Positions 27,940-32,689 of a stretch of DNA of 64,000 nt are shown here, one piece after another. Where the stretch lies: assembly GCF_003287895.1 (NCBI RefSeq), contig NZ_CP030280.1:751501-815500 (forward strand). Reading direction: 5' to 3'. Origin of the DNA: Blautia argi. Its GTDB lineage: Bacteria > Bacillota > Clostridia > Lachnospirales > Lachnospiraceae. Under the pieces are notes generated by a model. The model had not been told where the DNA came from and did not search any database. It worked only from the letters and a program-made list of their open reading frames with translations. The position numbers were made by a program, and so were the translations under genes. Numbering within the stretch: the first letter of the stretch is position 1; each line of letters opens with the position of its first letter.

Positions 27940-30657
27940 ATGGAGAATACGTCTGAACAGAAAACAGAAGGAACAGACACAATAGAAACCAAAAACGTCA
28001 GTCTTGCTCTCCTTGCTCATGTAGACGCAGGGAAAACTACGCTGGCGGAGAGTATTCTTTATCATACAGGCAGTATCCGCAAAATGGGAAGGGTGGACCA
28101 CAGAGACGCTTTTTTGGACACAGATTCCATGGAACGGGCAAGAGGTATTACGATTTTTTCCAAGCAGGCAGGTTTTTCCCTGGGAGAAAAGAACTTTACT
28201 CTTCTGGATACGCCGGGACATGTGGATTTTTCTGCGGAAATGGAAAGAACACTGCAGGTTCTGGATTACGCAGTGCTTCTCATCAGCGGTGCAGATGGGA
28301 TTCAGGGGCATGTACAGACTTTATGGCGGCTTTTAAAGCAATACAAGATTCCGGTTTTCCTTTTTATTAATAAAATGGATCAGGAAGGTACAGACAGGCG
28401 CGTGTTGCTTTTGGAACTGCAGAAAAAACTGGACGAGCGGTGCGTGGATTTCGGAGGGGACAGAAAGCGGGAGGAAGTTCTGGAGGAAATCGCCATGTGC
28501 GAGGAAAGCGTTTTGGAACATTATCTGGAAGAAGGAGAGATTTCCACGCCGGTTATCCAAAGTCTGATTGCCGAGCGCAGGCTTTTTCCGTGTTATTTTG
28601 GTTCTGCACTGAAATCTTTTGGAATAAAGGAATTTCTGGAAGGCATGGAAACCTATATACAATGTCCGAAATACAGTGCAGATTTTGGGGCAAGGATTTT
28701 TAAAATTTCCAGAGATGATAAAGGAAACCGGTTGACCCACATGAAAATCACAGGGGGAACGCTGAAGGTCAAACAGGTGCTCCAGGGAAAGGACTGGGAA
28801 GAAAAGGCAGACCAGATACGAGTATATGCAGGAGCCGGTTTCCGCACAGTAAGCGAAGCACCTGCAGGGACGGTCTGTGCAGTCACCGGTCTTACAAAAA
28901 CCTTTGCAGGAGAAGGGCTCGGCATGGAAAAGGAAGCGGTCAGTCCTCTTTTGGCGCCGGTTCTGACCTATGAGATTCAGCTTCCAAAGGGCTGTGACGT
29001 ACATAGAATGCTTTTGCAGCTCAGACAGCTGGAAGAGGAAGAGCCGCAGCTTCATATTGTGTGGAACGAGGCTTTGGGAGAAATTCATGCACAGGTTATG
29101 GGAGAAGTGCAGATTGAAATTTTAAAAAGCCTGATACAGGAGCGTTTTGGTGTAAACGTAGAGTTTGGTTCAGGGAGTATTGTATATAAAGAAACCATTA
29201 CAGAGCCTGTGGAGGGAATCGGACATTTTGAACCTTTACGTCATTATGCGGAGGTACATCTTCTTTTGGAGCCTCTGGAAAGAGGAAAGGGGCTGCAGTT
29301 TGCATCAGACTGCAGCGAGGATATGCTGGATCGAAACTGGCAGAGGCTGGTTCTGACCCATCTGGCAGAGAAAAACCACAGGGGTGTTCTGGCAGGTGCT
29401 GATATTACGGATATGAAAATTACTCTTATTACAGGAAAGGCCCATATCAAGCATACAGAGGGAGGGGATTTCAGACAGGCTACCTACCGGGCTGTGCGTC
29501 AGGGCCTGAAGAAAGCAAAAAGTATTCTTTTAGAGCCGGTTTATGAATACAGACTGGAAATCCCTCAGGAAGCTGTTGGAAGGGCTATGACGGATATTCA
29601 GAAGCTGTGCGGAACCTTTCAGGGACCGGAGTTGGAAGAAGATATGGCAGTGCTTACCGGAACAGCGCCAGTGGTTACCATGAGTGGTTATCAGAGAGAG
29701 GTCATTTCCTATACGGGCGGACAGGGAAGACTGTTTTGCACTTTAAAAGGCTATGAACCCTGTCACAATCAGGAGGAGGTTCTGGCAGAGCTGGCCTATG
29801 ATTCTGAGGCAGATGTGGAGAATCCCACAGGATCTGTATTTTGCGCCCATGGTGCAGGGTTCAACGTAAGCTGGGATAAGGTAGAGGAATATGCACACCT
29901 GGAATCTGCAAAGCAAAAGCAGGAGGCACAGGAGGCGGCAGTGAGAATGCCGGGACAGAGCTTTTCCAAGCTTCGCCTGGATGAAAAGGAATTAGAGGAA
30001 ATCTTTGCCAGAACCTATGGACCTGTCAAAAGAGAGAGAAATGCCTTTCAGAAAACCGTGCGCCGTGCCTCTTTTGATTCTGCACAAGCCAAAACAGGCA
30101 AAAAGAAGCAGGAGAAGGAAAAAGAATATCTTCTTGTAGACGGGTATAACATTATTTTTGCCTGGGAGGATTTAAACGAGCTTGCAAAGGTGAATTTAGA
30201 AGGAGCCAGAAGCAAGCTTATGGATATTTTATGCAATTATCAGGGATACAAAAAATGCACTCTGATTCTGGTTTTTGACGCTTATAAGGTTGAGGGTGGA
30301 CAGGGTGCTGTGCAGAAATATCACAATATTCATGTAGTTTATACAAAGGAAGCGGAAACAGCGGACCAGTATATCGAAAAAACAGTACATGAAATCGGAA
30401 AAAAACATCATGTGACAGTGGCTACTTCTGACGCCATGGAGCAGGTGATTATTCTGGGGCAGGGAGCGACCAGAATGTCTGCCCAGAATCTTCGGGAAGA
30501 GGTGGAGCTGATAAAGCAGGAAATCCGGGAGTATTATATCGAAAATCAGAAGAAAAGCGGGAGCTATCTGTTTGAGCATGCGTCTGAAGATCTGGCGGAG
30601 GTTCTGGAAGAGGTCAGACTTGGCAGAAGAAAAGAAATAGAAGAAAAGACGCAGTAA
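27940..30657 (+). CDS. TetM-like translational GTPase fused to a YacP/Rae1-type NYN endonuclease domain
   Basis: A 905-residue protein. Residues ~20-660 form an EF-G/ribosomal-protection GTPase: G1 AHVDAGKTT, G2 region RGITIFSKQ, G3 DTPGHVD, G4 NKMD, then domains II-V (HYAEVHLLLEPL, GRAMTDIQKLCG). A charged linker follows. Residues ~728-870 match YacP/Rae1: LLVDGYNIIFAW, LVFDAYKVEGG, EAETADQYIEK and TVATSDAMEQVIILGQGA, including the acidic catalytic residues. B. subtilis Rae1 is known to cut mRNA in the ribosomal A site. The GTPase lacks the TetM loop SPVSTP (it reads KHTEGGD there), so tetracycline resistance is doubtful. Inference: a one-piece factor that enters stalled ribosomes and cleaves mRNA. 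ATG follows AAAGGGG. Confidence 0.9.
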   Translation: MENTSEQKTEGTDTIETKNVSLALLAHVDAGKTTLAESILYHTGSIRKMGRVDHRDAFLDTDSMERARGITIFSKQAGFSLGEKNFTLLDTPGHVDFSAEMERTLQVLDYAVLLISGADGIQGHVQTLWRLLKQYKIPVFLFINKMDQEGTDRRVLLLELQKKLDERCVDFGGDRKREEVLEEIAMCEESVLEHYLEEGEISTPVIQSLIAERRLFPCYFGSALKSFGIKEFLEGMETYIQCPKYSADFGARIFKISRDDKGNRLTHMKITGGTLKVKQVLQGKDWEEKADQIRVYAGAGFRTVSEAPAGTVCAVTGLTKTFAGEGLGMEKEAVSPLLAPVLTYEIQLPKGCDVHRMLLQLRQLEEEEPQLHIVWNEALGEIHAQVMGEVQIEILKSLIQERFGVNVEFGSGSIVYKETITEPVEGIGHFEPLRHYAEVHLLLEPLERGKGLQFASDCSEDMLDRNWQRLVLTHLAEKNHRGVLAGADITDMKITLITGKAHIKHTEGGDFRQATYRAVRQGLKKAKSILLEPVYEYRLEIPQEAVGRAMTDIQKLCGTFQGPELEEDMAVLTGTAPVVTMSGYQREVISYTGGQGRLFCTLKGYEPCHNQEEVLAELAYDSEADVENPTGSVFCAHGAGFNVSWDKVEEYAHLESAKQKQEAQEAAVRMPGQSFSKLRLDEKELEEIFARTYGPVKRERNAFQKTVRRASFDSAQAKTGKKKQEKEKEYLLVDGYNIIFAWEDLNELAKVNLEGARSKLMDILCNYQGYKKCTLILVFDAYKVEGGQGAVQKYHNIHVVYTKEAETADQYIEKTVHEIGKKHHVTVATSDAMEQVIILGQGATRMSAQNLREEVELIKQEIREYYIENQKKSGSYLFEHASEDLAEVLEEVRLGRRKEIEEKTQ

Positions 30658-30683: not shown

Positions 30684-32689
30684 ATGGATAAGAAGACATA
30701 TTTTGAAAAACAGAGGAACCGCTATAAAAAGGGAGAACTTGCCTGGTGTGCAAAAATGGCGCGGAAATGGCATGAAGAGGAGTGCAGTCACATTCTGCGG
30801 ATTGCAGACGAAGCAGTGCGTCTGGAATTTCTGTTTGATTTATCCTGGGATATGGAACGTACTTATAAAAAAGAAACTTTTGCCTATCCCATTTGCTGGA
30901 CTTATATGCCGGCAGAGGACGAGGAATTTGTTTACCAGATGAACCGGCACAGATATTTTATCTGTCTGGGACAGGCCTATGCCATGACAGGAGATGAAAA
31001 ATACGCAGAAGCGTTTGTTCAGATAACAAAGGACTGGATAGGGCATGTTCCGTTAAATGAGGAGAGCAAAAAGATAACCTGGAGAGAGATTGAGGCAGGC
31101 ATCAGAGGTGAAAACTGGGTCAAAAGTATTTTGTATTTTGAGAACAGTCCTCTGATTGACGATGCCTTTATGGAATTGTTTACCAAGAGTCTGGAGGAGC
31201 ATGGGGAGTATCTTTTGCATGCACACAGGGGCTTTCAGATCTCCAGTAACTGGGGCGTAATTGAAAATCATGGTTTGCTGTTTATCGGCCTTGCACTGGA
31301 CAATTCATTGTATGTGGAAACAGCTCTGAAACGTCTGGAGCAGGAAGCCGGGATTCAGGTGTTTTCTGACGGGGTGCATTGGGAGCAGTCCTGTATGTAT
31401 CACAACGAGGTTCTCCACTGCTTCCTGGAATCTCTGCGTCTTTTAAAAATCTGGGGAAAGAGCTTGCCGAAAAAATTGCTGGAAACAACAGTACGTATGG
31501 CAATGGCAAATGTTGCCTGGAAAAAACCTGATGGTTGTCAGCCCATAACAGGGGATAGCGATGAAACACCTCTGGCAGATATGCTGTCAGCTTCTGCCAT
31601 TCTTCTGGCAGGGGAAGGAAGAGAGAAAGCAGAGATTTTAAAGGGGTGTGCAGAATCATATCCAGACTATGAGAGCATTTGGGACTGGGGACAGGAAGGT
31701 GTTTCGTTATATGAAGGAATTTCGTCCCATGTTCCAGAAGAAAGGAATTTTTTCCTGGAGGAGAGCGGAAATTATTATCTTCGCAGCAGTTGGGAAAAAA
31801 GACGGGGAATATCTCCATTTCCGAAACGGCTGTCAGGGCGGAGGTCATGGACATAACGACAAACTTCATATTGATGTGGTGTGTCAGGGGGAAGATGTGC
31901 TGGTGGATTCCGGAAGATATAGTTATAACTTTGAGCAGGAAAACCGCATATGGCTGAAAAGCGCTCACGCACATAATACCATACTGGTAGATAAAAAAGG
32001 ATTATCTGGAATATCCTGATGCATGGGGAACCAAAAACACAATGCCGGAACTTCCTATGAGAGTAAGAGAAAAAGAGGACTGTGTGCTTTTGGAAGGCGC
32101 CCATACCGGGTATCTGCAAAACGAAACGCAGGTGCTTTTAAGAAGGAAAATCCTGGTGCTGGAGCCAGGGGTGTATGTGCTGGCAGATACTGCCTATAGC
32201 GAAGAAAGCCATACCTACAGCCGTCTCTTCCATTTTAATAATCAGGGAATGGTAAGCGCCAAAGAAGGCAGGATTCTCTATCATGGAAAGCGGGCAGACA
32301 TGGAACTTATCTTTCCTCAGGAAGAAACCTGCTTTTATATAGAAGAAAGCAAGTTGTCACGGCATTATAATCTGTGTGAGAAAAATGAAATGGTGGCTGC
32401 AGATACAAAAGGAGAAGGAAAGACCTTTATGCTGGCTGTGCTGGCTGGAAATCAGAAAAAGCCTGTGAAGGTTTGTATGAATCCGGTCTATAATCCGGTC
32501 CGCGGCTGTTTACTGGCAGATGAGGCAGCACAGGCAGTTCGCATCTGCACAGATGCTCATGAATATGAGCTGATATTCCGGCACGGGGATTTGGCAGGTC
32601 CTCAGGATTTACTGCAGGCAGGTTCCTGTATGGGAATCGGAAGTGTGCTGGTATGTGCGGACTCCGGAGAAACTCTTTGTTTTGCATAG
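30684..32689 (+). pseudogene. Heparinase II/III family protein, two frameshifts
   Basis: Three frames join into one ~667-residue protein. Part 1 (from ATG 30684) is an all-helical alpha/alpha toroid (YPICWTYMPAEDEEFVYQMN, QISSNWGVIENHGLLFIGLA). Part 2 carries the heparinase II/III-type motif GGGHGHNDKLHIDVVCQGED with the His and Tyr (GRYSYNFEQ) expected in the lyase family. Part 3 is the C-terminal beta domain (RLFHFNNQG). Removing one A at 31795-31800 and one at 31993-31998 gives SSWEKDGEYLHF and VDKKDYLEYPDAWG. Family role: beta-elimination of uronic-acid polysaccharides. No signal peptide is seen, so it would act inside the cell on imported oligosaccharides, unless wrongly started. Confidence 0.82.

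Follow-up and report, generated by a model that had tools for sequence, protein, structure and literature searches.

What does a protein do in which a ribosome-binding type of GTPase runs on into the domain of an mRNA-cutting enzyme? The gene in question lies at positions 27940-30657 (+ strand) of the window, i.e. the whole stretch of 64,000 nucleotides of Blautia argi DNA that was analyzed (assembly GCF_003287895.1, contig NZ_CP030280.1, positions 751,501 to 815,500 of the forward strand). It is a single ATG-started frame of 905 amino acids with zero internal stops, and the Pfam search yielded six matches in it, five to domains of the elongation factor G (EF-G) type and one, at the C-terminus, to NYN_YacP, the domain of the ribonuclease Rae1 (YacP). 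The layout anticipated by an earlier reading of the letters alone (the original prediction), namely a full TetM/EF-G-like GTPase followed by a YacP/Rae1 NYN domain in one frame, was thereby recovered; a gene-prediction artefact or chance join was also considered and is ruled out by the single frame and the many relatives. The answer favored here, held with somewhat more belief than doubt, is that the fusion serves as the Rae1 of the cell, its GTPase bringing the nuclease domain, a predicted cutter of A-site mRNA, to ribosomes that have stalled.

Fused and free forms of Rae1

The NYN_YacP domain (residues 731-893, positions 30130-30618) scored 183.3 bits against a Pfam cut-off of 24.6, and the solved YacP chains 5mq8/5mq9 matched the same part of the protein at 98-99 bits. 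Its four acids D734 (30139-30141), D780 (30277-30279), D809 (30364-30366) and D831 (30430-30432) stand opposite D7, D53, D81 and D104 of YacP, of which D7 and D81 are presumably the catalytic residues. All four, whose conservation had been asserted beforehand, are present together with N737 in 112/112 aligned fusion proteins (the window protein and 111 relatives, the set behind all counts out of 112). Judged by sequence, the domain is of the RNA-cutting type and is predicted to cut A-site mRNA.

The form in which each genome carries the domain was judged by the frame holding the NYN match (fused, at least 600 residues; free, at most 240 residues). The single NYN_YacP match in the genome of B. 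argi is the fusion. In the full listing of a Lachnospiraceae family sample of 120 genomes the domain occurs in 108, with 98 of fused length, seven of free length (G048, G017, G082, G005, G043, G022 and G033) and three between (G078, G054 and G081), second pieces of G030 (139 residues, at a contig start) and G061 (56 residues, below the cut-off) being excluded. A larger search of this family found the domain in 270 of 298 genomes; the best 150 of the 270 comprised 137 of fused length, ten free and three between. Regarding the wider samples, the domain was found in 132 of 147 genomes of the order and in 100 of 147 of the class, and the 226 domain-bearing genomes of both divide into 96 with the fused form only, 125 with the free form only, two with both and three unclear (small second pieces of G338 (48 residues), G313 (62 residues), G547 (163 residues, below the cut-off) and G423 excluded). 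The phylum sample has the domain in 72 of 119 genomes, eight of them with a fused-length frame, that of B. argi included (rows judged by eye; a 714-residue frame of G603 with a partial match below the cut-off was not counted). Genomes with one form hardly ever have the other as well, and genus g351 holds both states (G416 fused, G421 free). A scan with named genomes kept 80 of 342 relative-encoding loci, the closest among these being from Blautia hansenii (85% identity). Many Clostridia, including most of the sampled Lachnospiraceae (98/120), thus seem to tether the Rae1 domain to a ribosome-factor GTPase. The GTPase and the NYN domain are both absent from the 20 genomes tested of the 28 Lachnospiraceae without NYN, which is no evidence of a functional link, because loss of one fused gene removes both. 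The fusion of B. argi lies on a 3.3-Mb contig and resembles a core gene more than a mobile resistance gene.

The place where free Rae1 is usually encoded gives the strongest sign of what the fusion does. Among 44 free-YacP loci (mostly the best-scoring of each sample, out of the 125 free-only genomes), 41 adjoin trmH and/or sigH and 31 adjoin both. The gene order in B. argi is cysS-mrnC-trmH-sigH (trmH by a TIGR00186 match, the others named by sequence reading; mrnC is taken here to encode Mini-III), with no yacP between trmH and sigH, which overlap in ATGA. In 31 fusion genomes (B. argi and 30 others), trmH and sigH were found without NYN in 17, trmH without NYN in 13 in which sigH fell outside the stretch examined (up to 1.5 kb a side), and NYN was kept between the two genes in one, G412, which has both forms; the slot is accordingly empty in 17 of the 18 genomes with both flanks readable, B. 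argi included. Since the slot lacks NYN in the genomes that have the fusion alone, the fused domain probably does the work of Rae1. The relatives in Lachnospiraceae suspected in the original prediction, and the check for an absent stand-alone yacP proposed there, agree with the 98 fused-length genomes and with the single match and empty slot of B. argi.

Two side observations concern the location of free forms. In G048, G269 and G182 (loci L008, L011 and L014) a free NYN lies elsewhere than in the trmH-sigH slot; these three gave the top scores to the NYN domain of the window among the free forms compared, and may have moved there as copies or have split off from fusions. The two loci of G412 (L110 and L111) hold the fusion and a free Rae1, the latter in the slot and with its NYN residues intact.

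The GTPase half and the origin of the fusion

The GTPase half consists of the GTP-binding domain GTP_EFTU (residues 20-241, positions 27997-28662), domain II (EF-G_D2, residues 249-325, 28684-28914), domain III (EFG_III, residues 340-410, 28957-29169), domain IV (EFG_IV, residues 413-527, 29176-29520) and domain V (EFG_C, residues 530-611, 29527-29772). The motif D90-T-P-G-H94 and residues N144, K145 and D147 are found in 112/112 proteins, and K32 and T33 of the P-loop in 111/112, the remaining row being a gap there; with its G motifs and EF-G domains II-V the protein belongs to the translational GTPase superfamily (EF2 branch). Its best NCBIfam match, tet_protect, reached 420.6 bits and is below the cut-off of 775, as is the EF-G model TIGR00484 (293 bits, cut-off 659.4). 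The closest solved structures by sequence were TetO (269.6 bits) and TetM (245 bits). All places in the list of a structure look-up went to matches of residues 14-621, which makes it hardly a test of the NYN part.

The tip of domain IV reads KHTEGGDF (residues 504-511, positions 29449-29472) at the position of the Tet loop SPVSTP, as had been noticed beforehand and was reproduced in the alignment with TetM. H505, T506, D510 and F511 are present in 112/112 proteins, K504, G508 and G509 in 110-111, and E507 in 104. Pro509 of TetM, which contacts C1054 of the 16S rRNA (PMC8161019), aligns with K504, and lysine occupies this position in 110/112. In a quick maximum-likelihood tree of 65 GTPase rows (long branches near the root flagged), five Tet-like rows form a branch of their own (support by the Shimodaira-Hasegawa-like approximate likelihood ratio test (SH-aLRT) 88), and 58 fused and NYN-less rows form another (100). 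Of the Tet-like rows, two (L280 and L278) score above the tet_protect cut-off and have the SPVSTP tip; L276 and L286 fall short of it and have other tips, as has L277, a row without a tet_protect score. L280 is a separate TetM/W/O/S-type protein of B. argi itself (G000:C1:87984-89903, 639 residues, 1272 bits, cut-off 1100), and the same genome also encodes L281 and L282, two EF-G-like GTPases with some 700 residues each (the EF-G label being that of the present analysis). Because of the score below the cut-off, the other tip, the separate branch and the second Tet-type gene in the genome, the GTPase of the fusion is, as far as such comparisons reach, not a standard Tet protection protein. Tetracycline resistance as the main function was considered and is ruled out by the same four points; the earlier doubt about classic tetracycline resistance was well placed in view of score, tip and branch.

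Domain V is followed by a conserved family-specific tail (residues 604-655, positions 29749-29904) with the motif C608...SVFC.HGAGF.V.W...H, which is common to the fusions and to full-length relatives without NYN and was not seen in the alignment in the five Tet-like or the two EF-G-like rows. The linker behind it (residues 656-729, positions 29905-30126) is variable, the stretch from residue 656 to 731 spanning 64-139 residues across the family, and is mostly of low confidence in the predicted structure. It contains a short conserved helix, E684-L-x-x-I688-F-x-R-T692-Y-G (positions 29989-30021), in which E is found in 112/112 proteins and I and T in 109/112 each; this nearly invariant helix may serve in docking.

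Relatives of the GTPase half were sought with a model of domains IV-V and tail (A1), which also matched 53/53 fused-length frames of the class sample. The search found NYN-less members of about 650-720 residues that end after the tail; the HTxGGD tip is common to them. Eight of the ten clearly free-YacP Lachnospiraceae (from the best 150 of the 270 genomes) have a full separate gene for such a GTPase, the gene of G082 being broken or cut and G005 having none (G022 and G033 lie outside these ten). The class sample has GTPase and YacP as separate genes in G489, G533, G571 and G554. Where separate, the two genes lie at different places in the genome. The 40 fused rows of the GTPase tree form one clade (SH-aLRT 99) with the NYN-less relatives outside; its sister (97) is L214, an NYN-less protein from a genome whose free yacP adjoins trmH.

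These results suggest that rae1 probably came to be attached, in one event, to a Tet-related GTPase, replacing the free enzyme in many Clostridia. In an ancestor, a free rae1 would have been copied or moved behind an NYN-less GTPase with the HTxGGD tip, and the old copy then lost. In the simplest story, the genes would have been joined once, the free copy would have disappeared, and the fusion would have spread by descent and probably also by transfer, for which the two states within genus g351 are an indication. The trees of the NYN domain speak less clearly for a single joining: a quick tree of 90 rows gave three changes between the forms and was poorly resolved, and a careful tree (four long rows, L106, L101, L111 and L072, dropped) gave two, a single origin not being rejected (p-AU 0.505 in the approximately unbiased test). 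The NYN tree is too short for a decision between one origin and two.

Regarding the gene neighborhood, conserved neighbors were sought at 111 fusion loci, many of them short; relatives of MATE proteins were found in 12, and a ribosomal-protein cluster beside the fusion in L128 and L129 only. No operon partner is named, because no conserved neighbor was found among these loci. Downstream of the fusion in the window lies a gene that looks broken (30684-32689), in three frames (30684-31856, 31648-32019 and 32042-32689); it is presumably of the heparinase II/III type.

Proposed function and alternatives

Free Rae1 has been described as a ribosomal A-site endoribonuclease, to which stalling has been hypothesized to give more access (PMC6613710), and S1025 has been named among its substrates (PMC11780869); it is counted among the known nucleases attacking A-site mRNA, and the cut frees the site for transfer-messenger RNA (tmRNA) and SmpB (PMC12320835). 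Tet-type GTPases overlap the site of EF-G and reach into the A site (PMC8161019), and the tip and the nuclease therefore probably exclude each other there. Since both would compete for one place, the landing and cutting envisaged in the original prediction, with a putative role in ribosome rescue or antibiotic tolerance, would likely be two steps. The GTP-bound protein would dock at the factor site of a ribosome with an open A site, its HTEGGD tip probing the decoding center; GTP hydrolysis would withdraw domain IV; the NYN domain would swing on its long linker into the vacated A site and cut the codon there; and the complex with truncated mRNA would be passed to tmRNA-SmpB. The genome of B. 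argi has both tmRNA (151 bits) and SmpB (212 bits).

In its strongest form, which is put forward tentatively as possible rather than probable, this reading would make the fusion a GTP-driven A-site endonuclease in which hydrolysis clears the A site for the tethered nuclease, so that recognition of stalled ribosomes, cutting and opening of the site for tmRNA are united in one protein; it would have taken the place of free Rae1 in a large part of the Clostridia and be the first translational GTPase to carry an mRNA-cutting domain of its own. If this is true, a step of ribosome rescue or mRNA surveillance in these bacteria is under GTP control, the resistance label is wrong for the fusion family, and the admission of Rae1 to the A site becomes testable within one molecule.

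Several observations weigh against the favored reading. Four genomes of the class sample, G497, G455, G458 and G483 (loci L272, L274, L273 and L275), have a GTPase with the HTxGGD tip and zero NYN_YacP matches, so the GTPase would have a job of its own. Conversely, of the 46 class-sample genomes with a free YacP, 42 are without an A1 match above 300 bits, and free Rae1 would thus need no such GTPase. Delivery need not be what the GTPase is for, because free Rae1 has no fused GTPase. TetM-like binding would put domain IV into the A site, which makes simultaneous cutting sterically doubtful. In the structure model the GTPase and NYN parts are mostly confident, but the placement of the one relative to the other is not fixed (pTM, the predicted template modeling score, 0.50). 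A free-length Rae1 also persists beside the fusion in G396 and G412.

Some of these facts suit an explanation by two unrelated jobs, in which the fusion would just couple expression and the NYN domain would act like free Rae1. Each half does occur alone, in the four and the 42 genomes just named, and the linker is long and of low confidence; the fusion has, however, been retained across many families, the short linker element is nearly invariant, separate genes at different places mean that expression was not previously shared, and the A site of the ribosome is where either half would be expected to act. This explanation survives best among the alternatives and is regarded as unlikely.

Less probable still would be a factor in ribosome assembly or rRNA processing, in which the GTPase would bind ribosomes that are immature or damaged, with rRNA as the target cut by the NYN domain. 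The neighborhood of free yacP, which adjoins mrnC and the rRNA methyltransferase gene trmH, fits such a role, as do an earlier proposal, mentioned in PMC4342817, that this NYN domain takes part in the maturation of rRNA and tRNA and the finding that mutations of yacO (trmH) and rae1 in B. subtilis fall into one pathway (PMC6613710); against it stands that Rae1 of B. subtilis has been described as cutting mRNA in the A site (PMC6613710, PMC12320835).

Least probable of all is a ribosomal-protection protein, against tetracycline or another drug, whose GTPase releases the drug and whose nuclease aids resistance, as proposed by Atkinson (2015; PMC4342817): the proximity of TetO and TetM among solved structures, tet_protect as best NCBIfam match and the Tet label of one relative (P0024) are outweighed by the low tet_protect score, the lysine in place of Pro509 in a tip without SPVSTP, the separation of the fused clade from the Tet-like rows, the Tet-type protein that B. 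argi already has and the core-like location and frequency of the gene.

Comparison with known systems

The fusion architecture is already in print, and no first report is claimed. In ten clostridial species, Atkinson (2015) described Tet proteins that carry an RNase domain of the YacP-like NYN kind, and suggested a contribution to resistance (PMC4342817); these have the same layout of a Tet/EF-G-like GTPase and a YacP-like NYN domain, the ten species being matched by description. The fusions are filed there as Tet, and the loss of free yacP, the empty slot, the NYN-less relatives and the tip are not treated in the available excerpts. Among the excerpts of PMC4342817, PMC6613710, PMC12320835, PMC11780869 and PMC8161019, only those of the first mention the fusion. 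New are the fusion as the only NYN_YacP match of its genome, the empty slot, the near-exclusive forms and the single clade of fused GTPases, next to which stand NYN-less relatives that share its tip. The names given to the proteins are mixed among the 120 listed: P0024 is called Tet, which shows that some databases label fusion proteins as tetracycline resistance, whereas P0039 and P0100 are each a 'translation factor GTPase family protein' and P0059 an 'NYN domain-containing protein'; of the suspicion that relatives are often labeled tetracycline resistance, the label itself was thus found on one relative, the other three bearing other names.

With Rae1/YacP of B. subtilis (5mq8/5mq9) the window protein has the NYN_YacP domain and the four aligned acids in common; Rae1 is a free protein of about 170-200 residues in the free loci, usually encoded between trmH and sigH, whereas the window protein falls outside this description, its NYN being the C-terminal domain of a GTPase encoded at another locus. 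TetM and TetO have the five-domain EF-G-like GTPase, DTPGH and the P-loop in common with it, and differ in tip, tail, family score and branch as well as in the extra linker and nuclease of the window protein, which is set apart from EF-G by its score below the TIGR00484 cut-off. The nearest kin of the GTPase half are the NYN-less GTPases with the HTxGGD tip (e.g., L214, L221 and L267), which have the same tip and the same tail and end without a nuclease.

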